64,000 nt of DNA, taken from the NCBI GenBank assembly GCA_905479995.1, contig CAJQON010000015.1, positions 124,001 to 188,000 on the forward strand, given 5' to 3'. The position numbers and the translations under genes are program-made. Within the stretch, counting starts at the first letter, position 1, and every line of letters starts with the position of its first letter. Below are positions 3,957-63,054 of the stretch, piece after piece. Below the pieces are notes generated by a model, which was given only the letters and a program-made list of their open reading frames with translations, was not told where the DNA came from and did not search any database. This DNA comes from an uncultured Flavobacteriales bacterium. GTDB lineage: Bacteria > Bacteroidota > Bacteroidia > Flavobacteriales_E > Vicingaceae.

Positions 3957-4769
3957 ATGGGTAAAATAATAGCAATATCAAATCAAAAAGGTGGAGTAGG
4001 TAAAACTACAACAGCCATAAATTTATCAGCAGCTTTAGGTGTTTTAGAATACAAAGTGTTGTTGGTAGATGCTGATCCACAAGCTAACTCAACGTCAGGA
4101 GTAGGTTTTGATCCTCGTAACATTAAAAAAAGTGTCTATGAGTGTTTGATTAATGAAATTGAGCCTCGTGAAGCAATTTTGCACACGAATTCTCCAAATT
4201 TAGATATTTTACCTGCTCATATTGATTTGGTTGGTGCAGAAATTGAATTGATTCAACTGCCCAATAGAGAACAAATGATGCGTGCATCATTGGCTCAGAT
4301 AAAAGACGATTACGATTTTATAATTATAGATTGCTCTCCTTCATTAGGCTTAATTACAATAAACTCTTTAACTGCTGCTGATTCTGTAATTATTCCAGTT
4401 CAATGTGAATTCTTTGCTTTGGAAGGTTTGGGTAAATTGTTAAATACCATAAAAATTGTTCAAGCTCGTTTAAATCCAGATTTAGATGTTGAAGGATTGT
4501 TATTAACCATGTTTGATGTTCGTTTAAGATTATCTAACAATGTAGTAGATGAAGTAAAAACACATTTTCAAACAATGATGTTTGATACAATCATTCAAAG
4601 AAATACACGTTTAGGTGAAGCTCCAAGTCATGGCGAAACCATTATTATGCATGATGCAAGTTGCAAAGGATCGATTAACTACTTGAACCTAGCACGTGAA
4701 ATTTTGCAAAAAAATGAGATGACCAAAATGACAGATGAGGAGAAAACAATTGTATTAGAAGATGAGTAA
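3957..4769 (+). CDS. parA: ParA/Soj chromosome-partitioning ATPase
   Basis: A 270-residue ParA-family ATPase that moves the ParB-bound origin region during chromosome segregation. The deviant Walker A motif KGGVGKTTTAINLS is at residues 11-24, and DFIIIDCSPSLG supplies Walker B and switch II. ParB overlaps the last 8 bp (4762-4769), which implies translational coupling. Length and gene order match chromosomal Soj-Spo0J pairs, not plasmid ParA. Confidence 0.95.
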   Translation: MGKIIAISNQKGGVGKTTTAINLSAALGVLEYKVLLVDADPQANSTSGVGFDPRNIKKSVYECLINEIEPREAILHTNSPNLDILPAHIDLVGAEIELIQLPNREQMMRASLAQIKDDYDFIIIDCSPSLGLITINSLTAADSVIIPVQCEFFALEGLGKLLNTIKIVQARLNPDLDVEGLLLTMFDVRLRLSNNVVDEVKTHFQTMMFDTIIQRNTRLGEAPSHGETIIMHDASCKGSINYLNLAREILQKNEMTKMTDEEKTIVLEDE

Positions 4770-56190: not shown

Positions 56191-56278
56191 GGAGATGTGG
56201 CAGAGTGGTCGAATGCGGTAGTCTTGAAAACTATTGTACCGTAAGGTACCGGGGGTTCGAATCCCTCCATCTCCGCCA
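56191..56278 (+). tRNA. trnS: tRNA-Ser(UGA) with encoded CCA
   Basis: Acceptor arms ggagatg and catctcc pair fully, with discriminator G at 56275 and CCA at 56276-56278. The anticodon loop is cttgaaa (anticodon TGA at 56225-56227) on a 5-bp stem. A long variable arm (gtaccgtaaggtac) and gggggttcgaatccc as T arm are typical of a class II serine tRNA. Its 3' end is the left attachment site of an island. Confidence 0.96.
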
Positions 56279-56284
56279 GAAAAA
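56269..56284 (+). repeat. Left attachment-site repeat (attL) in the tRNA-Ser 3' end
   Basis: The 16 bp atctccgccagaaaaa, covering the tRNA 3' end and five following A, are repeated exactly at 63025-63040 in the same orientation. This is the usual mark of integration at a tRNA gene that restores the tRNA. Confidence 0.75.
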
Positions 56285-56360: not shown

Positions 56361-56493
56361 TTGCCAACGGCTCGAATATGCAGAGTGCGGGTTTTCAAGG
56401 AACTTCATTATTAAACCGCTACTTGGTTTATTAAATGCTTTAAAGTTCAAGTTTACTAAAACGCCCCGCATTACGTATATTTATTGTTGGCAG
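56361..56493. repeat. attC-like palindrome E1
   Basis: Outer ends ttgccaacggctc (56361) and tgttggcag (56485-56493) are inverted. Inner arms agtgcgggttttc near 56385 pair with aaaacgccccgcatt near 56457. It has the layout of an integron attC site (short inverted cores around a hairpin) and lies 6 bp past the sulfotransferase stop. Confidence 0.6.
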
Positions 56494-56499
56494 TAGTGT

Positions 56500-57324
56500 T
56501 TATATCTCAAAACCAAGTTTTTTTACATATTCTATTTTTTCACTTTCAAATATGCTCAAATCTTTATTCTTGTATCTGTTATTCGAACCTGTATTTTTAG
56601 GGATTCGATAAAGCTCCTCTTTTTCACTTATTGATAAATTAATACCTGCAAATTCTAATAATTTATCAATTTCTATTTTCGGTTGGTTGCAAAAGTTGGT
56701 GTGATTTATAAGTAAAAATCTATTGCTATATTTCTTTGATTTTTCAAGTACATCTTTAGTAGATTCAATCCAATAATCAAATTGCTTTACTGCTAATTCA
56801 TTGTCGCTTTCCTTTCCGTCCAAACGGATATTGTATTTCCAACCCCAATTATTCAATTGCTGTTTATTATTTGAAAAAGCCATATCTAATCCATTCCTTA
56901 AAACGTGTACGTATTTTAGTTCATCAAAGAAATCCAGTAATTCATTCATATATATATGAGTATTTGGCTCTTTCCACCCCCAATTGTCCGTATTTTTTCC
57001 TTTACTAAACAGTTTCTTTACTACACGTAAATAAAATTTAGAAGTTGAATGAAAAGTTGGATTTGATTTTGATGCTAAATACAATTCATTTAATTCTTGC
57101 AATGAAAGTTTATTGAATCTCATATAATTCTCAAATAAACTCATCCGTTTCTGTTTTTGCGAATCAGATGATTTCCTGTACCAATCAGGATTTTTAAATA
57201 ATCTTGTAAAAATCAGATTATCATTAGGACCATTAAGGTCATCTCCCATATATATTCCAGAATGTATTAAAACTTCTGCTATGGCTCTTGTGCCACTGCC
57301 TCCTAAGGCTCCTATTGCTATCAT
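56500..57324 (-). CDS. Sulfotransferase-family protein
   Basis: A 274-residue cytoplasmic protein of the PAPS-dependent sulfotransferase superfamily. The N-terminal IGALGGSGTRAIAEVLIHSG is the 5'-phosphosulfate loop with Gly and Ser/Thr (Lys is lacking), and YVHVLRNGLDMAFSNNKQQ matches the 3'-phosphate-binding region. WGWKEPNTHIYMNELLDFF is usual in bacterial members. Acceptor unknown; it may decorate a surface glycan. It is the first cargo unit, between E1 and E2. Confidence 0.75.
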   Translation of the reverse strand: MIAIGALGGSGTRAIAEVLIHSGIYMGDDLNGPNDNLIFTRLFKNPDWYRKSSDSQKQKRMSLFENYMRFNKLSLQELNELYLASKSNPTFHSTSKFYLRVVKKLFSKGKNTDNWGWKEPNTHIYMNELLDFFDELKYVHVLRNGLDMAFSNNKQQLNNWGWKYNIRLDGKESDNELAVKQFDYWIESTKDVLEKSKKYSNRFLLINHTNFCNQPKIEIDKLLEFAGINLSISEKEELYRIPKNTGSNNRYKNKDLSIFESEKIEYVKKLGFEI

Positions 57325-57344
57325 TGTTACTTCCTTTATATTAC

Positions 57345-57435
57345 TGCCAACACCTATCTATGTTTTTGTGTTGTTTTAAACTTTAGTTTAAAATGATAAA
57401 GCTAAAACAATATAAAATATTGATGTTGTTGGCAA
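57345..57435. repeat. attC-like palindrome E2
   Basis: Outer inverted cores tgccaaca (57345-57352) and tgttggca (57427-57434). The centre contains gttttaaact and agtttaaaat, which pair. It separates the sulfotransferase unit from the 57486 gene. Confidence 0.6.
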
Positions 57436-57452
57436 ATCGTTATTGTTTTATT

Positions 57453-57525
57453 TTTTTTTTGTTAAAACCTCTCCTTTAGAAGTTTCTAATTGTAAAAAGT
57501 AAATACCAATTGGAGCATTAATGTC
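57453..57525 (-). pseudogene. Out-of-frame remnant of a T9SS type A sorting tail
   Basis: In another minus-strand frame than the 57486 gene, 57525 to 57453 reads DINAPIGIYFLQLETSKGE then VLTKKK and a stop. After a one-base slip in the ten-T homopolymer (57451-57460) the text continues IKQ-stop, so an intact tail ending KKIIKQ is implied. It is the end of a different, secreted protein now joined to the cargo gene. Confidence 0.6.
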
Positions 57526-57947
57526 AATATCAATTTATTATTTTGAATACTGCCGTGTAGGTTTAATTTATAACCTGGTTCAAGAAATTTTATTTCATCC
57601 AATATTTCTCTTGCTTTTTGAGTTGAAATTGTCCCAGTTCCCTCGTGTAGAAAAGCGCATCTTAAAGCATAACAATCATTACCACTTAACTTCGTCCCTT
57701 TTAACAAGTTTTGATAATCTTCTTCAGTACTATGTTTTCTAACCATTGCTAATTGGCCTTCAGAATAATTCGTTTTATAACTGTCACCAACATAATCATC
57801 AAACCATTGAGCATACTTTTTACCAGACGTTTTATTTCCGTCAGAAATTTTAGAACAAATGTCTGGAATGGTTAAAGCCGTTGCAATTGCACAGTACCAG
57901 TTTTTATTGGTAATTGAAATTTTTATTGAGTCTGTTAAGTGTTGCAT
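57486..57947 (-). CDS. Mobile-cassette hypothetical protein with replaced C-terminus
   Basis: A 153-residue protein. NWYCAIATALTIPDICSKIS, KYAQWFDDYV and KLSGNDCYALRCAFLHEGTG match by eye a common all-helical hypothetical family, possibly HEPN-like, found in many mobile islands. The last 14 or so residues (TLMLQLVFTFYN) do not fit; they are the frame-shifted reading of a T9SS tail. The gene is thus probably a chimera truncated near residue 140. The E2 and E3 palindromes flank it. Confidence 0.6.
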   Translation of the reverse strand: MQHLTDSIKISITNKNWYCAIATALTIPDICSKISDGNKTSGKKYAQWFDDYVGDSYKTNYSEGQLAMVRKHSTEEDYQNLLKGTKLSGNDCYALRCAFLHEGTGTISTQKAREILDEIKFLEPGYKLNLHGSIQNNKLILTLMLQLVFTFYN

Positions 57948-57957
57948 CTTAATTAAT

Positions 57958-58024
57958 GGTAACGTGTGGCTAAATATACGGATTTGCTGGCGAAGCGCAA
58001 ATATGGAATTTAGGTTGTGTTACC
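57958..58024. repeat. attC-like palindrome E3, overlapping the RT gene 3' end
   Basis: Outer inverted cores ggtaac (57958) and gttacc (58019-58024), then taaat/attta and atttgc/gcaaat inner arms around an 8-base centre. It contains the last codons and the stop of the reverse transcriptase gene, as in many integron cassettes where the attC overlaps the gene end. Confidence 0.65.
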
Positions 58025-59250
58025 CAACGTTTTCTTTTCTTAACTGGCTTATTTTTCAATACAAATTTGGCTATTCCGCCACTTAAGTAGACATGGTTAA
58101 ACCAATAGCCGTTAAGGTGTTTAAAGATCATTCTTTTTCTGAGGTGGTAGGTTTTATAATGAATCATGATGCCTAAATAAGAATTCATACTGCTTAAAAA
58201 TGCATTGAGGTCGTCTTTAGTAGGTTTACGTGTTTCAATTATTTTATTCTGCTGCTGAATGGCAATGTAAAAATTGCCTTTAGTTCGGTTAGCGATATAA
58301 ATTCTGTTGGGCTTTATCACTGTTCCTAAAAACTTGACTCCTTTTGTGTAATGCTGCAAGTATATTTTCTTTGGATGTAGAGTCAATTTTAATTCATTAT
58401 TAAGATAATTTGATATTACAGGAATTAAAGACTTGAGATATTCTTTGTCTGAGTGAACAATAATGAAATCATCAACATATCTGCCATAAAAACGAATACC
58501 GAGTTCTTTCTTTATAAAATGATCGAAGGCACTCATGTAGAAGTTGGCAAATATTTGACTGGTTAAATTACCAATGGGTAAACCACTATTTGGTGGACTG
58601 TTAAAAAGGCTTTTGTTTGTAGGTAAGCCATTCCAGTTTTTAGAACTTCCTTTTATGATGCAGTTTTCAATTGGGCTATTGCTTATTATTTTATAGCATA
58701 TTTCTAATACCAACTCTTTATCTTTTTGTTGATATTTTGTTTCTATAAACTTTTCTAATCTACTGAAGAGAATTTCTTTATTGATATGCATAAAGAAACC
58801 CTCAATATCTAATTTTAATACATAGCAATCCTTTGTATAATTGATAGAGCATTTACGAATGAATTTATTAGCTCTACTGATACCATAATGCGTTCCTTTG
58901 CCAATACGGCAAGCAAAACTGTCTTGAATAAACTCTTTTTCGAAAAGCGGGTTTAGTTTATTAATGATGAGATGATGTACTACTCTGTCTCTAAAATCGG
59001 CAGCAAAAATTTCGCGTTGCACTGGTTTGTGTACAATAAAAGCAATTGTCTTGCCCGGTTGGTAGCTTCCATCATTCAGCTCGTTCCATAATTGAATAAG
59101 ATTGTTTTCATAATCCAATTCAAAAGTGAGCGCATTAATGGTGTTACGTTTGTTATTACGACAGGAATAGTAGGCTTTAAAAACTGCTTCTAACGAAAAG
59201 CCTTCTTTTAGCTTTGTGTTGTTAGCATTAGAAAATAACGATAGTTGCAT
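57970..59250 (-). CDS. DGR-type reverse transcriptase
   Basis: A 426-residue reverse transcriptase of the diversity-generating retroelement branch. VLKLDIEGFFMHINKEI holds the first catalytic Asp (motif A). GLPIGNLTSQIFANFYMS has the DGR-specific IGxxxSQ motif, in place of the QGxxxSP of other bacterial RTs. GRYVDDFIIVHSD is the YxDD active site. KGVKFLGTVIKPN and a basic C-terminus (KKRKRW) complete the fingers-palm-thumb. It would copy the TR transcript into cDNA with errors at adenines. All catalytic residues are intact. It starts 57 bp past the TR. Confidence 0.95.
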   Translation of the reverse strand: MQLSLFSNANNTKLKEGFSLEAVFKAYYSCRNNKRNTINALTFELDYENNLIQLWNELNDGSYQPGKTIAFIVHKPVQREIFAADFRDRVVHHLIINKLNPLFEKEFIQDSFACRIGKGTHYGISRANKFIRKCSINYTKDCYVLKLDIEGFFMHINKEILFSRLEKFIETKYQQKDKELVLEICYKIISNSPIENCIIKGSSKNWNGLPTNKSLFNSPPNSGLPIGNLTSQIFANFYMSAFDHFIKKELGIRFYGRYVDDFIIVHSDKEYLKSLIPVISNYLNNELKLTLHPKKIYLQHYTKGVKFLGTVIKPNRIYIANRTKGNFYIAIQQQNKIIETRKPTKDDLNAFLSSMNSYLGIMIHYKTYHLRKRMIFKHLNGYWFNHVYLSGGIAKFVLKNKPVKKRKRWVTQPKFHICASPANPYI

Positions 59251-59261
59251 AATCTTTAATA

Positions 59262-59291
59262 AAAGTGCCTGAAGATAACCTCAGGCACTTT
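59262..59291 (-). promoter_or_regulatory. Hairpin in the TR-RT spacer
   Basis: Arms aaagtgcctga (59262-59272) and tcaggcacttt (59281-59291) form a perfect 11-bp stem with an 8-base loop. It lies 16 bp past the TR and 11 bp before the RT start. It may stabilise the TR RNA, prime or position the RT complex (as the Sp region does in the Bordetella phage DGR), or attenuate RT expression; a short T run follows on the minus strand. Confidence 0.6.
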
Positions 59292-59307
59292 CTGCTTTGT
59301 TTAAAAC

Positions 59308-59442
59308 CCCGTACTGCACGCACGTAATTTGTGTTGTTCTTATTGTTGTTGTTCTGGTTACCATTGTTGAAATTCTGTTTCCACGCATTGTTGTTATCGT
59401 TCTCCGTAGAACTCCAATAGTTGTTATTAGCAAAACCACCAA
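59308..59442 (-). repeat. DGR template repeat (TR), 135 bp
   Basis: The 135-bp segment is 77% identical to the variable repeat at 60078-60212. By hand count it has 53 adenines on the coding strand; 29 are changed in the VR, against 2 of the 82 other bases. It is rich in AAC and AAT codons (18 Asn codons, 17 altered in the VR), the usual design that avoids stops when adenines change. The last stretch, tacgtgcgtgcagtacggg, is unchanged and GC-rich, like an initiation-of-mutagenic-homing site. The open frame through it (59228-59506) is not considered a protein gene. Confidence 0.95.
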
Positions 59443-59625
59443 CGATATAAAATAAAGGTGTTAATCTAAGTACAAGGCGTCTTGCACTTATTATAGTAAA
59501 CATCATTTCTAAAAAAAGAAAGAAGTCTTACTCATTTTAACTGCTTTTGCAAACAGTCCCTTTATCGCTTTTAAACTAAAACTTGCTCGCTTACTGCCAC
59601 CGTAACAACAGTAATTCTGGCTTTA

Positions 59626-59967
59626 TTAAGGCTGGCTATTACGCCAACCTGTAATTTGTTTTCCAATATTATCCATTAATACGCTTATTTCTACTTGTTT
59701 TTTTATGGATATTATTTTCATATCAGTACATAGTCGTATTTCTAGCTTTAAGAGTTCAAAGTCATCCAAAAAAGCCTCTAGGTATTCTTTCTTGTTTTGT
59801 GCTTTGTTGGCTCTGTAAATACTTCTCATTAGCACCATAGAATCTTTCTTTAGATCTTGCCCTAAAGTGTATTTATATTCTTTAGAAAAATCTTTGGTTA
59901 AACTGTAAATTAACAAAATGAGTTTGTACACATCCTTAAAAACAGGTAAATCATAATATAACGCCAT
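59626..59967 (-). CDS. avd: Accessory variability determinant (Avd), four-helix-bundle protein
   Basis: A 113-residue helical protein with a basic surface: LPVFKDVYKLILLIYSLTKD, TLGQDLKKDSMVLMRSIYRA and EISVLMDNIGKQITGWRNSQ are the helix signatures of the bAvd/four-helix-bundle family related to the S23 protein. In known DGRs, Avd forms a pentamer that binds the RT and the TR RNA. Its place between target and TR is the usual one. Two adjacent stops end the frame; the same frame then stays open for 37 codons. Confidence 0.9.
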   Translation of the reverse strand: MALYYDLPVFKDVYKLILLIYSLTKDFSKEYKYTLGQDLKKDSMVLMRSIYRANKAQNKKEYLEAFLDDFELLKLEIRLCTDMKIISIKKQVEISVLMDNIGKQITGWRNSQP

Positions 59968-59983
59968 TGTAAATAAGTTAAAT

Positions 59984-60015
59984 AAAAAATGGAGGACAAA
60001 CGCCCTCCATTTTTT
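59984..60015. terminator. Hairpin between target gene and avd
   Basis: Arms aaaaaatggagg (59984-59995) and cctccatttttt (60004-60015) around an 8-base loop. It is 16 bp upstream of avd and 55 bp past the target stop. It can act as a bidirectional terminator and lies where DGR target sites often carry a hairpin that aids homing. Confidence 0.6.
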
Positions 60016-60023
60016 AAAAATCG

Positions 60024-60036
60024 ACCGCTACGCGGT
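60024..60036. repeat. Short GC-rich hairpin downstream of the VR
   Basis: accgc and gcggt flank tac, giving a 5-bp stem with 3-base loop, 41 bp past the VR end. Beyond it, ataaattgttaaa occurs twice (60038-60050 and 60062-60074), the second copy overlapping the target stop. Such structures after the VR are needed for homing in the Bordetella phage DGR; here that is inference. Confidence 0.4.
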
Positions 60037-60069
60037 AATAAATTGTTAAATAGATGAATGGATAAATTG

Positions 60070-61143
60070 TTAAAAAGCCCGTACTGCACGCACGTAATCC
60101 GTGATGGTCTTAAGGCTGAAGCCCTGGAGACCACTGGGGAAATCATGGGCCCACGCAATGCTGCCATCGCGCTCCGTAGAACTCCAATACCTGAAATTAG
60201 CAAAACCACCAATTGCTGCCCTCTGGGAGTACATTTCATTTAATTCAAATCTGGTTGGCATTCGCCAATCCATAAATTTTTGTCCATTTGTACTATGGTT
60301 TGCTGGATCGCTTATTATATTTTGCGCTGTATACCAATCGTTAGATATCGACTGGTCTTGTGTCTCTGCCACAAGACCATGTTTCCCATCTGCTGATATT
60401 CTAAAAACATAACCACCGAGAGCAGGGTGTAAACCAATAGTGTAGATTGGTTCTGTATAGACTCCTACGCTGTCTTGGAAAGTGCCACCACCGTTGCTTA
60501 GCGTTACTGTAGTTCCTGTACGGCTAATGGTTTGTATTTCGTTGGTTACAGAACCATCTACTTCTGATGTAATACCGCCTGCATTATAACCTAGATTAGC
60601 TATGTCAGTAGAGTCTAGTTGGGTGTCTGTATCAATGATGTGATTATTCCAGTTAGCAGTATCTAAGGCGGTAATACCATTAGCAATAGATACCCCAAAT
60701 ACAGGGTCAGTTTCTGTTATACTTACCCCGCCAACAATGCTATCTGCTGTTTTAGCGTGCAAAGCGTAAGGAACACTCATTAGTTGGCTAGTGCCTGTTA
60801 TGGTGTAAGCTGTTCCTCCTGTTGGGTCAGTTTCTGTTTTTATAAAATAAGTATCGTTTGCCCAATCAATCGTACTAAAGCTTCCACTAACTACCGTTCC
60901 TGCACCTATTTCAAGGCTTACCAATCCGTTGGCGTTGCTTGTTGGTGTTTGTGTTTCTACATAAACTGCTGTTCCTGTTGCTCCACCTTGTAAAATGCTT
61001 ATTTGCATACCTACTGCTGTAGAAGTTACTAAAGCATCACTAGCATTTCTTACTACTGCTTGGTAACTCATTTTTTCTGGGCTTTGTGCCCATACACTTG
61101 CAGTCATAAATAATACTGCTGCTATTGTAAATATTCTTTTCAT
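60070..61143 (-). CDS. DGR target protein, secreted, C-type-lectin-like/DUF1566 variable domain
   Basis: A 357-residue exported protein. Signal peptide 1-19 (MKRIFTIAAVLFMTASVWA). Residues 20-125 form a beta-rich module (KMSYQAVVRNASDALV) and residues 130-230 a Thr/Asp-rich linker. From about 245 a DUF1566/Lcl-type domain begins (GGYVFRISADGKHGLVAE, DWRMPTRFELNEMY), whose last 45 residues are encoded by the VR and contain YWSSTE and YVRAVRAF. Invariant Trp, Tyr and Ser residues form the scaffold, and the variable residues would form the binding surface. No T9SS tail is present; the gene 6 bp upstream encodes one. Confidence 0.92.
   Translation of the reverse strand: MKRIFTIAAVLFMTASVWAQSPEKMSYQAVVRNASDALVTSTAVGMQISILQGGATGTAVYVETQTPTSNANGLVSLEIGAGTVVSGSFSTIDWANDTYFIKTETDPTGGTAYTITGTSQLMSVPYALHAKTADSIVGGVSITETDPVFGVSIANGITALDTANWNNHIIDTDTQLDSTDIANLGYNAGGITSEVDGSVTNEIQTISRTGTTVTLSNGGGTFQDSVGVYTEPIYTIGLHPALGGYVFRISADGKHGLVAETQDQSISNDWYTAQNIISDPANHSTNGQKFMDWRMPTRFELNEMYSQRAAIGGFANFRYWSSTERDGSIAWAHDFPSGLQGFSLKTITDYVRAVRAF
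60078..60212 (-). repeat. DGR variable repeat (VR), 135 bp
   Basis: It encodes the last 45 residues of the target gene and aligns without gaps to the TR at 59308-59442. Of 31 mismatches, 29 are at TR adenines; they change 17 Asn and 1 Lys and leave a silent ACA to ACG. The exceptions are AAC to AGG (third base C to G) and CAG to CAT (G to T). The constant end tacgtgcgtgcagtacggg is shared; differences begin just after it. Confidence 0.95.
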
Positions 61144-61148
61144 TGTTT

Positions 61149-61622
61149 TTAGTTTTTGATTATTTTAAATGTTTTTATTAACTGATTGTTATCCGTTACG
61201 GTTAAAAAGTAAGTTGCTTTTGGTAAACTTTCTAGATTAATGGTAGAAGTTGTTGCTGTTACTTTTTTGTTTTCGATTACTTTTCCTTGTAGGTCTATTA
61301 GTTGAAAGTTTAAGTTTTCTAACTTTTCACTGTCTACTTTTAACTGCAAGTAATTGGTTGTAGGGTTGGGGTAAACCGAAAGTTCTAATTGAATAGTTGT
61401 TTCGTTTATTCCTACTGTTGTAGAAATTTCATAGGGTTGTTGCACACCTTGTGCTAAGCTTCCGTTTGTTCCTGTTGCAGTAGTGTAAACTACTTGTCCT
61501 ACCGTGTAACTGGAGGTTCCGCCTGTTCCGGTGGCTTCACCCCCTGATGCAGTTGGGATTTCTTGGGCGTGTAATCCTCCTATTCCTATGAGTAAAAATG
61601 TAATACTTGCTATTGTTTTCAT
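61149..61622 (-). CDS. Small T9SS type A-sorted protein upstream of the DGR target
   Basis: A 157-residue secreted protein with signal peptide (1-19, ending GLHA) and an N-terminal Gly/Thr/Ser-rich stretch (GGEATGTGGTSSYTVGQVVY). The last 75 residues are a type A sorting domain (VYPNPTTNYLQLKV, YFLTVTDNNQ, KTFKIIKN). It lies 6 bp from the target gene, so both are made together; it may carry or present the target on the surface. Such short proteins often sit beside DUF1566/FISUMP-type genes in Bacteroidota. Confidence 0.85.
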   Translation of the reverse strand: MKTIASITFLLIGIGGLHAQEIPTASGGEATGTGGTSSYTVGQVVYTTATGTNGSLAQGVQQPYEISTTVGINETTIQLELSVYPNPTTNYLQLKVDSEKLENLNFQLIDLQGKVIENKKVTATTSTINLESLPKATYFLTVTDNNQLIKTFKIIKN

Positions 61623-61646
61623 ATTTTATTTAATTTTTAATCGAAA

Positions 61647-61665
61647 GATTGAACAAAAGTCAATC
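61647..61665 (-). promoter_or_regulatory. Palindrome with near-consensus -7 element before the DGR target operon
   Basis: gattga and tcaatc flank a 7-base centre, 25 bp upstream of the operon start. On the minus strand GACTTTTG (61661-61654), one base off TAnnTTTG, lies across the centre. A regulator bound to the palindrome would cover the promoter. Confidence 0.45.
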
Positions 61666-61683
61666 ATTTAGTTTAATTACACA

Positions 61684-61763
61684 ATACCCCTTAATGGGTA
61701 TATTTTATGTTGGGTAACGGCTAAATAAAAACCGTTTTCAATGGGTTTTATTTTTTGTTAGGG
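61684..61763. repeat. attC-like palindrome E4 with adjacent inverted repeat
   Basis: Core ends ggtaac (61713-61718) and gttaggg (61757-61763); inner arms aaataaaaacc (61723-61733) and gggttttattt (61743-61753). It overlaps the stop of the 61748 gene. Next to it ataccc/gggtat (61684-61701) form a further small palindrome. It is the right border of the DGR unit. Confidence 0.65.
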
Positions 61764-62134
61764 TTAGTTTTTATTAAAGGTCCTAATAGTTCAGGTTCTT
61801 CTCTTATGGACAGAAACAATTCATTTTCTTTTCTAATAAAATATTTAAAGTGAAATATTGGATCCCATGAAAGTGGCTGACCAAAAACATCATTTTCTGT
61901 ATTTCGTTTAAATTTTTTCATCGTTAAAATCAATGTGTCTGCTTTGTACTCAAAAGACCCATAAAATGTTACCATACCAGCATTAGCTTCATTTCCGGCT
62001 AAAGTAAACGTGCTATCAAGATTTAACTTTAATTCAATACGAGTTCTATTGGTATTATGAACAAAGAGTTCAGGAAGCTCTTGTGATAATCCAAAAAATG
62101 GAAGTATAAACAATATTTGTATTAATCGCATCAA
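61748..62134 (-). CDS. Small exported hypothetical protein, 128 residues
   Basis: Signal peptide MMRLIQILFILPFFGLSQ, then a beta-rich body (RTRIELKLNLDSTFTLAG, MVTFYGSFEYKADTLILT) that looks like a small lipocalin-like or META-like barrel. No family is recognised. The 3' end lies in palindrome E4 and the 5' side is 10 bp from E5, so it is a single-gene cassette. Confidence 0.65.
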   Translation of the reverse strand: MMRLIQILFILPFFGLSQELPELFVHNTNRTRIELKLNLDSTFTLAGNEANAGMVTFYGSFEYKADTLILTMKKFKRNTENDVFGQPLSWDPIFHFKYFIRKENELFLSIREEPELLGPLIKTNPNKK

Positions 62135-62143
62135 TTTAATTAA

Positions 62144-62196
62144 GCCTAACGGTTAATGTAAAAAGTCGTTTTAATGCTTTTTACATAGTGTTAGCA
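62144..62196. repeat. attC-like palindrome E5
   Basis: Core ends gcctaac (62144-62150, matching RYYYAAC) and gttagca (62190-62196, close to GTTRRRY). Inner arms atgtaaaaag (62156-62165) and ctttttacat (62177-62186) are a perfect 10-bp stem with 11-base loop. It is the cleanest of the set. Confidence 0.7.
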
Positions 62197-62252
62197 GTAT
62201 TAAAAGCTCCTAAATGAAAGAGGTTATTAAGTTTGTCCAAAGTTCTTTAAAT

Positions 62253-62780
62253 CTATTTGTCAGCGTCATATTCACTAGCACTCCACTCATCACTATTACT
62301 AGAAAGTAGTCTATGCACTTCTATTGGCTTGCCTTTCCTCAAAAGGTCAATAAAGCTTTCTTCCCCACCAGCGTAACCCCACTCTGATGTTTCATGATTT
62401 CTAAAAAAATCAGCCACAAGCATTAGCTTTCCATTTAGCTCCTTAATAAAAAACACTTTGCCCATCATAAAAACTCCTGGCGATGGATTCACTCCTGAAA
62501 TATAACATGCCCATAAAGATTCTCCTGTACTATCTTGATAATGAGAGATTTTGTAAATGTTTCTAGCATTTGCATTCGCATCTGCCTCTTCATAAAAAAA
62601 ATCTGGCTTAGGTTTTTTAAGTACTGGATATCCAAGTCCTATAGTCACGTTGTCTGAAAACATAGCCATTTGAGAAACTATGTCATTATACTCTTCAAAC
62701 CTTGACTTATAATTTCCAGCCTCTAAAACTCTTTGCTCAAGTTCAAATAGTTCATTTAAAAAGTCTATTATTTTGTCCAT
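62253..62780 (-). CDS. Hypothetical cytoplasmic protein, 175 residues
   Basis: An acidic protein without a signal peptide: FLNELFELEQRVLEAGNY, WACYISGVNPSPGVFMMGK, ADFFRNHETSEWGYAGGEES. The alpha plus beta layout recalls NTF2-like immunity or SnoaL-type folds, but no family is recognised. It is a single-gene unit between E5 and a degraded half palindrome at 62795-62830. Confidence 0.6.
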   Translation of the reverse strand: MDKIIDFLNELFELEQRVLEAGNYKSRFEEYNDIVSQMAMFSDNVTIGLGYPVLKKPKPDFFYEEADANANARNIYKISHYQDSTGESLWACYISGVNPSPGVFMMGKVFFIKELNGKLMLVADFFRNHETSEWGYAGGEESFIDLLRKGKPIEVHRLLSSNSDEWSASEYDADK

Positions 62781-62880
62781 ATTTTTTTTATTACTGCTAA
62801 CAACCGGCTAAACCACACTAATGTGTAACGTACCCGAAGTTTTCCTTGTAAATATAGTACATTTGAGTTACACAGTTGTA

Positions 62881-63054
62881 ATGGATGAATTATTAATAAA
62901 ATATCGCTTTCAAGGGTTTCCTTATATCGTAGCTGATGGTAAAGGTGAGTTTTACCAATTACCTCATGTAGTTAATAAGTATACTAGATCATTCAGAAAA
63001 TTGAATGTTGTATTGAATAATGGTATCTCCGCCAGAAAAAGCTTCCTTATTTAA
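62881..63054 (+). CDS. Truncated small island gene crossing the right attachment site
   Basis: From the ATG at 62881, 57 residues (MDELLIKYRFQGFPYIVADG, FYQLPHVVNKYTRSFRKLN, VVLNNG). This resembles the N-terminal part of a small protein often found in Bacteroidota mobile elements. After NNG at 63024 the frame passes into the 16-bp repeat and stops 10 codons later, so the original 3' part was probably replaced by recombination at the repeat. Confidence 0.5.
   Translation: MDELLIKYRFQGFPYIVADGKGEFYQLPHVVNKYTRSFRKLNVVLNNGISARKSFLI
63025..63040 (+). repeat. Right attachment-site repeat (attR)
   Basis: Exact copy of the 16 bp at 56269-56284 (tRNA-Ser 3' end). The following gcttcctta hairpin and T run look like the terminator that once followed the tRNA. 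Confidence 0.75.

Follow-up and report, generated by a model that had tools for sequence, protein, structure and literature searches.

A diversity-generating retroelement (DGR) stands in a 64,000-nucleotide stretch of DNA from an uncultured Flavobacteriales bacterium of the Vicingaceae (contig CAJQON010000015.1, positions 124,001 to 188,000; here called the window), within a row of unrelated genes near a tRNA gene. The spread of DGRs between distant bacteria is poorly understood. An earlier note on this DNA placed a complete DGR, with its reverse transcriptase (RT) gene, accessory gene avd, template repeat (TR), and target gene ending in a variable repeat (VR), at 57970-61622. The DGR is present there, but that interval covers only part of a longer unit, which extends on the left to 61718, and we find that this unit is probably a gene cassette of an integron-like array. 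The cassette ends, the tRNA-Ser island, and the fossil copies described below were missing from the earlier note. The window genome (G000) comprises 3.1 Mb in 59 contigs and is 98% complete. It was compared with sister species of the genus (G005, G009, G010, G011, and G012) and with other loci numbered L017 and so on, with one genome per species.

The DGR probably occupies a single integron-like cassette

Once an integron cassette has been excised as a circle, its start has to pair with the R'' box. A canonical attC scan with the strict pattern RYYYAAC/GTTRRRY found nothing useful and a loose hairpin scan gave little above shuffled sequences, and because both were uninformative, a test of the complementarity of unit ends was adopted. 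The pattern of another attC subtype had no copy in G000, and Rfam returned the tRNA and chance matches only from the array part of the window. The DGR unit extends on the minus strand over 57964-61718 and holds, in order, a protein with a type IX secretion system (T9SS) sorting domain, the target, avd, TR, and RT; it runs from G|TTACCCAAC at 61718 to the G|TT of 57963. The unit start GTTACCCAAC (61718) is complementary at 10/10 positions to GTTGGGTAAC at the 3' end of the RT gene. We define the minus-strand sequence at 57957-58028 as the attC-like site of the DGR cassette, which consists of the R'' box GTTGGGTAAC (58028-58019), a hairpin, and the G|TT of the next cassette. The C-terminal codons of RT fall within this site, which folds with a z of -2.5 relative to shuffles.

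The DGR unit is one member of a minus-strand row formed by ORF 62253, ORF 61748, the DGR unit, ORF 57486, and a sulfotransferase gene, all unrelated, all in one direction, and each followed by an imperfect hairpin. The array is one of tandem same-strand cassettes whose attC-like sites fold as bottom strands, more stably than shuffled sequences do (z of -2.5 to -7.2). Complementarity between a unit's own ends averaged 8.9/10, versus 6.7/10 with the next cassette (permutation p 1e-4; 9 types). When 75 kb was scanned blind in 228 gene-unit tests, every match fell inside the array, one of them being a nested overlap; among 1035 unit-end tests in other loci, nine reached 9/10 and 10/10 was reached only in L032. 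In an alternative reading, the element is a chromosomal DGR of the usual sort, and the 10-mer matches and nearby hairpins are coincidence or transcription terminators. Its parts are standard and several orthologous DGR loci lack such ends, but 10/10 ends are absent elsewhere in the 75 kb, RT-less copies in other contexts carry the same ends, and a recombinase gene stands upstream of the DGR in L032, all of which makes this explanation very unlikely. We conclude that the whole DGR set, from the T9SS partner and the target with its VR through avd and TR to RT, is probably one integron-like gene cassette. A full-text literature search found no description of a DGR as an integron cassette, although absence from that search is not proof of absence.

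The neighboring cassettes likewise lie on the minus strand. The sulfotransferase gene (56500-57324) is carried by a cassette at 56362-57351 with ends GTTGGCAGTA and TACTGCCAAC (10/10), and ORF 62253-62780 by one at 62151-62801 with ends GTTAGCAGTA and TACTGCTAAC (10/10). The ends of the cassette of ORF 61748-62134 (61719-62150) match at 8-9/10, and the cassette of ORF 57486-57947 (57345-57963) has an attC-like site at 57345-57441 with a z of -5.0.

Cassette ends recur at other DGRs and at RT-less copies

Matched ends were also found at DGRs elsewhere. L026, with an RT at 62% identity, has a start GTTATGCAAA at 236 and an R'' box TTTGCATAAC at 4733, just past the RT stop codon; the ends match at 10/10, a hairpin of -41 kcal/mol and then CG|TTATGC follow, and any such match arose in 4 of 500 shuffles. 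The L032 DGR, from Saprospiraceae, has ends GTTACTTGCC and GGCAAGTAAC (10/10), and directly upstream a gene for a 368-residue IntI/XerA-like tyrosine recombinase ends 50 bp before the cassette. The left end of L018 and the right end of L035 have GTTATAACCA in common.

In the sister species, the hairpin that follows ORF 57486 was matched 23 times in G010 and 7 times in G011; many of these copies exceed 90% identity and stand behind different genes. About 20 aligned copies were constant through ...GGGCG and variable from TT on, and because the border falls there, the crossover is placed at G|TT. The cassette arrays of G010 include two T9SS-target units with ends A/GTTACCCAAC and GTTGGGTAAC that have kept their VRs and in which avd, TR, and RT are missing. 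Target genes with fossil VRs and no RT were located at L045 1724-2100 (G005), L078 3454-4620 and L079 264-1391 (both G010), and L080 78-383 (G011). One VR of G010 differs from the window TR at 26/53 adenines and at 2/82 other bases. In the G005 copy the target and VR persist, and the target/avd spacer behind them runs straight into the final ~30 codons that match RT; the G011 avd is disrupted a few codons in. Because RT-less copies occur in G010, G005, and G011, the DGR must have been present formerly and has decayed repeatedly, with the target gene still open. The fossil VRs show 2, 8, 9, and 18 differences from the window TR at bases other than adenine, which suggests copies of different ages, with the caution that the own TR of each species was unavailable for comparison.

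Recombinases and group II introns at the arrays

L162 (G010:C5, 6489-8705) holds an IntI/XerA-like recombinase gene that heads a cassette array, followed by a palindrome, a cassette with 9/10 matched ends, and a second cassette start. The L032 recombinase is 45% identical to it over 269 residues, and the nearest solved structures are XerC-like 4a8e, XerA 5hxy, and IntI4 2a3v. Possibly, the L162 recombinase is the platform enzyme of the arrays. As other candidates for that enzyme, the L160 integrase (G010:C139) was set aside since the gene adjoining it was judged, with no profile search, to be an IS91-type transposase, and the L147 integrase (C149) has neither a cassette start nor a cassette end next to it.

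Group IIC-attC introns are known to insert in R'' sites of attC in antisense orientation (PMC7923331). An antisense group II intron lies in L019 at GTTGGGTA, where a related DGR RT ends in an attC-like R'' site as the window RT does, and another at L153 12890-13713 occupies an attC-like R'' site antisense to the cassettes. A family of transposon-like units, each with its own terminal inverted repeats (GTT...AAC) and moved by a transposase, would fit ends that are inverted repeats and the lack of an integrase in G000. In each unit, however, a hairpin shared by unrelated genes lies internally, after R'' and before the next G|TT, the arrays run head to tail in a single orientation, tyrosine recombinase genes stand at array heads, and antisense group II introns sit in R''. 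A transposon-like origin is therefore highly improbable.

Several observations weigh against the cassette reading. No excision product was seen, and all loci compared are single draft genomes or metagenome-assembled genomes (MAGs). The R' boxes of the array read GTTRNNN and mostly depart from the canonical GTTRRRY, which GTTAGGC fits and GTTGGCA, GTTACCC, GTTACCA, and GTTAGCA do not, and the own ends of the ORF 57486 cassette match at 5/10 only. A profile search of G000 with TIGR02249 returned XerC/D-like genes only and no integron integrase. The L032 and L162 recombinases match XerA and IntI profiles, but they reach 190-216 of the 265 bits set as the NCBIfam integron-integrase cutoff and skip positions ~180-240 of that profile; because they miss the family cutoff and G000 has only XerC/D-like genes, we call the array integron-like rather than an integron. 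At L032 itself, no clear GTT follows the 3' hairpin and RT is broken by a run of N. Finally, two-sided cassette ends were not found at L017, L020, L021, L037, and other related Bacteroidota DGR loci, so the link between DGRs and cassettes is not general.

With chromosomal integrons and clusters of attC sites lacking an integrase (CALINs), the array shares head-to-tail cassettes in a single orientation, sites folded on the bottom strand, a G|TT crossover, own-end complementarity, and antisense group II introns in R''. In contrast to integrons, G000 lacks IntI, the R' boxes are relaxed, and the recombinase of relatives is without the IntI-specific stretch and below the family cutoff.

The cassette array lies in a tRNA-Ser island

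The gene for tRNA-Ser(TGA) (56191-56278, plus strand) is an integration hotspot of the genus. Its 3' end forms a 16-nt direct repeat, ATCTCCGCCAGAAAAA, at 56269-56284 (plus strand), a second copy lies at the far end of the island at 63025-63040 (plus strand), and the cassette array sits between the two; a third copy beyond the window (equivalent to 65229-65244) follows a HipBA pair. Between the repeats of the G000 island there is no integrase. The tRNA and a neighboring GWxTD gene are syntenic in the genus, and most contigs stop within ~2.8 kb of the tRNA. Tyrosine integrases are found at the same tRNA-Ser in G010 and G009, and in G010 with matching repeats as well.

The direct repeats at the tRNA-Ser 3' end, and the tyrosine-integrase islands held by the same tRNA in sister species, are features of tRNA-targeted integrative islands of Bacteroidota, from which the G000 island differs in lacking an integrase and in bearing a cassette array. 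The DGR could have arrived with this island only, the array being an old passenger without a role in its transfer. The three repeats and the integrase islands of G010 and G009 favor such a history, whereas the RT-less copies of G010 and the DGRs of L026 and L032 have cassette ends with no tRNA nearby, and on balance arrival by the island only is unlikely. The HipBA pair occupies another small segment flanked by tRNA-Ser repeats (L091 8026-10272, window equivalent 63025-65271).

By its sequence, the element is a complete DGR

TR (59308-59442, minus strand) spans 135 bases with 53 adenines, and VR (60078-60212, minus strand) lies inside the end of the target gene. A program alignment returned exactly the coordinates of the earlier note and was gap-free along all 135 bases. 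Counted on the gene strand, 31 positions mismatch, 29 of them among the 53 template adenines and the other 2 among the 82 remaining bases (Fisher p = 8.3e-13), identical to the hand count made before. Template adenines changed to G (13), T (8), and C (8), and the two remaining changes were C to G and G to T. Between TR and VR 20 codons are altered, of which 17 are Asn, as had been claimed. None became a stop codon, a change open to just two TR codon types (AAA and AAG). The VR had been described as the last 45 residues of the target; it does encode the C-terminal end, but VR ends at 60078 and the stop codon occupies 60070-60072. G000 has a single TR, a single VR, and a single RVT_1 gene.

Downstream of VR, at 60024-60036 (minus strand), lies a target-site hairpin, ACCGC-GTA-GCGGT, with a GNA triloop. 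DNA of the sequence GCGNAGC forms unusually stable mini-hairpins. Most related loci have a hairpin CCGC-G[T/A]A-GCGG, with a loop of GTA or GAA, ~40-50 bp after VR. The hairpin is 3' of VR as in phage DGRs, with a stem shorter than the phage consensus: the window has a 5-bp stem and a triloop 40-50 bp from VR, versus a 7-10 bp stem and a GRNA tetraloop 4-34 bp from VR in phages (PMC3240598). In the RT-less copy of G005 (L045), the VR-side hairpin is degenerate (ACCTCGTATCGGT).

The RT gene (57970-59250, minus strand) encodes 426 residues and matches RVT_1 at 77.5 bits. The best solved relative is PDB 8ub7 'Reverse transcriptase' (E 3.5e-33), of the DGR-type/group II RT lineage, which we take to be the BPP-1 DGR RT complex. 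The motifs IGNLTSQ and YVDD, singled out earlier, fall in invariant or near-invariant blocks of an alignment of 13 related RTs, the YVDD block being invariant, and 12 related RTs are 49-85% identical to that of the window. Between TR and RT is a long, terminator-like stem-loop (59262-59292, minus strand) followed by T-rich sequence; it occurs at the same place in the 11 loci compared, with stems that differ in sequence and length. The protein previously called Avd-like (113 residues; 59626-59967, minus strand) scores 74.3 bits against Pfam bAvd (PF22296; cutoff 40) and 66.8 against NCBIfam DivGenRetAVD (NF033474), under its cutoff of 80. The target (357 residues; 60070-61143, minus strand) has a C-type-lectin-like Lcl_C C terminus (PF07603, over cutoff), such that VR lies in a ligand-binding-type fold by profile, and its best solved relative is PDB 8q4e HbP1 (E 4e-25). 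Just upstream, a small protein (61149-61622, minus strand) carries a T9SS C-terminal sorting domain (PF18962/TIGR04183, over cutoff), and the pair recurs in L017, L018, L019, L045, L078, and L079. Homologs of the T9SS-tailed protein pair with this target type (L018, L019, L078, L082, and L084) even without a visible DGR.

Each sequence feature looked for in a DGR (RT, TR/VR, Avd, lectin-like target, and hairpin) was found, in agreement with the earlier description of the DGR as complete. Like the DGR of Bordetella phage BPP-1 (bRT, Avd, TR, and mtd VR), the window DGR has a group II-related RT, Avd, adenine-specific TR/VR divergence, and a hairpin 3' of VR; it differs in being chromosomal, in its putative cassette, in its Lcl_C target with a T9SS partner, and in its terminator-like TR-RT stem. 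Legionella-type DGRs are close to the window DGR in RT (61-65% identity; L023-L027) and in Avd but differ in their targets, and no convincing cassette ends were found in them. We conclude that, as judged from sequence, the window element is a complete DGR, ordinary in anatomy and mechanism.

A proposed mechanism for diversification and transfer

By analogy with the family, RT and Avd would copy TR RNA erroneously at its adenines into cDNA, which would replace VR beside the GNA-loop hairpin to give a surface protein with new binding residues. The anatomy of the sites suggests that a tyrosine recombinase acting in trans would join the folded RT-end site to another site at G|TT, and the outcome would be either excision of a 3.75-kb circle or insertion of the cassette elsewhere. 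In the circle, the ends GTTGGGTAAC and GTTACCCAAC would form a full site, with a junction of GTTGGGTAAC-hairpin-G joined to TTACCCAACAT. What followed later is seen in sister species, where RT, avd, and TR are deleted and the target is retained with its last VR. We infer excision, transfer, and the function of the target from these features.

A broader proposal, which we advance tentatively and with slightly less than even confidence, is that Bacteroidota own an integron-like platform, with an XerA/IntI-like recombinase devoid of the IntI-specific insert and with relaxed-R' attC sites, that gathers and exchanges entire DGR modules in cassette form, and that loss of RT following transfer freezes one evolved binding variant of the target. 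Should a DGR move as a cassette, a gene-capture system would distribute a targeted-mutation system and supply the host with a surface protein already equipped to evolve. RT-less cassettes would then preserve, as a natural archive, the variants retained once diversification ended.

Maintenance and distribution of the DGR

Between species, TR changed at 3/53 adenines in L017, L018, and L035 and at 7-8/82 other bases. The pattern is reversed between VR and TR: in L017, TR changed at 3/53 adenines versus 7/82 other bases, whereas VR differs from TR at 26/53 and 6/82, respectively. The VRs of other species depart from the window TR chiefly at adenines (22-26 of 49-53). Comparison with L017 gave 124 synonymous versus 64 nonsynonymous codon differences in RT, a pattern by which RT is under purifying selection. 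That the element is active or was recently, as first proposed, is well supported, if indirectly, by conserved TR adenines, divergence of VR at them, and purifying selection on RT. The DGR thus shows signs of a maintained system, and we infer present mutagenesis of VR.

RTs with more than 60% identity to the window RT were found in Bacteroidota and in relatives of Legionella. In the RT tree the Legionella RTs branch from within those of Bacteroidota, so the DGR crosses phyla. Within the order, the window RT was present in 1/46 genomes. A different DGR of the same genus, L047 (G012:C76, ~55.0-58.4 kb of the contig), has an RT of ~30% identity together with two VRs and a single TR that contains 24 adenines. 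On L039, a 327-kb viral contig, a 10-kb stretch holds two RTs of the window-RT family together with as many as three TR/VR-like pairs. One Bacteroidota MAG holds two DGR copies (L021 and L037), and the RTs of L037 and L034 are nearly identical.

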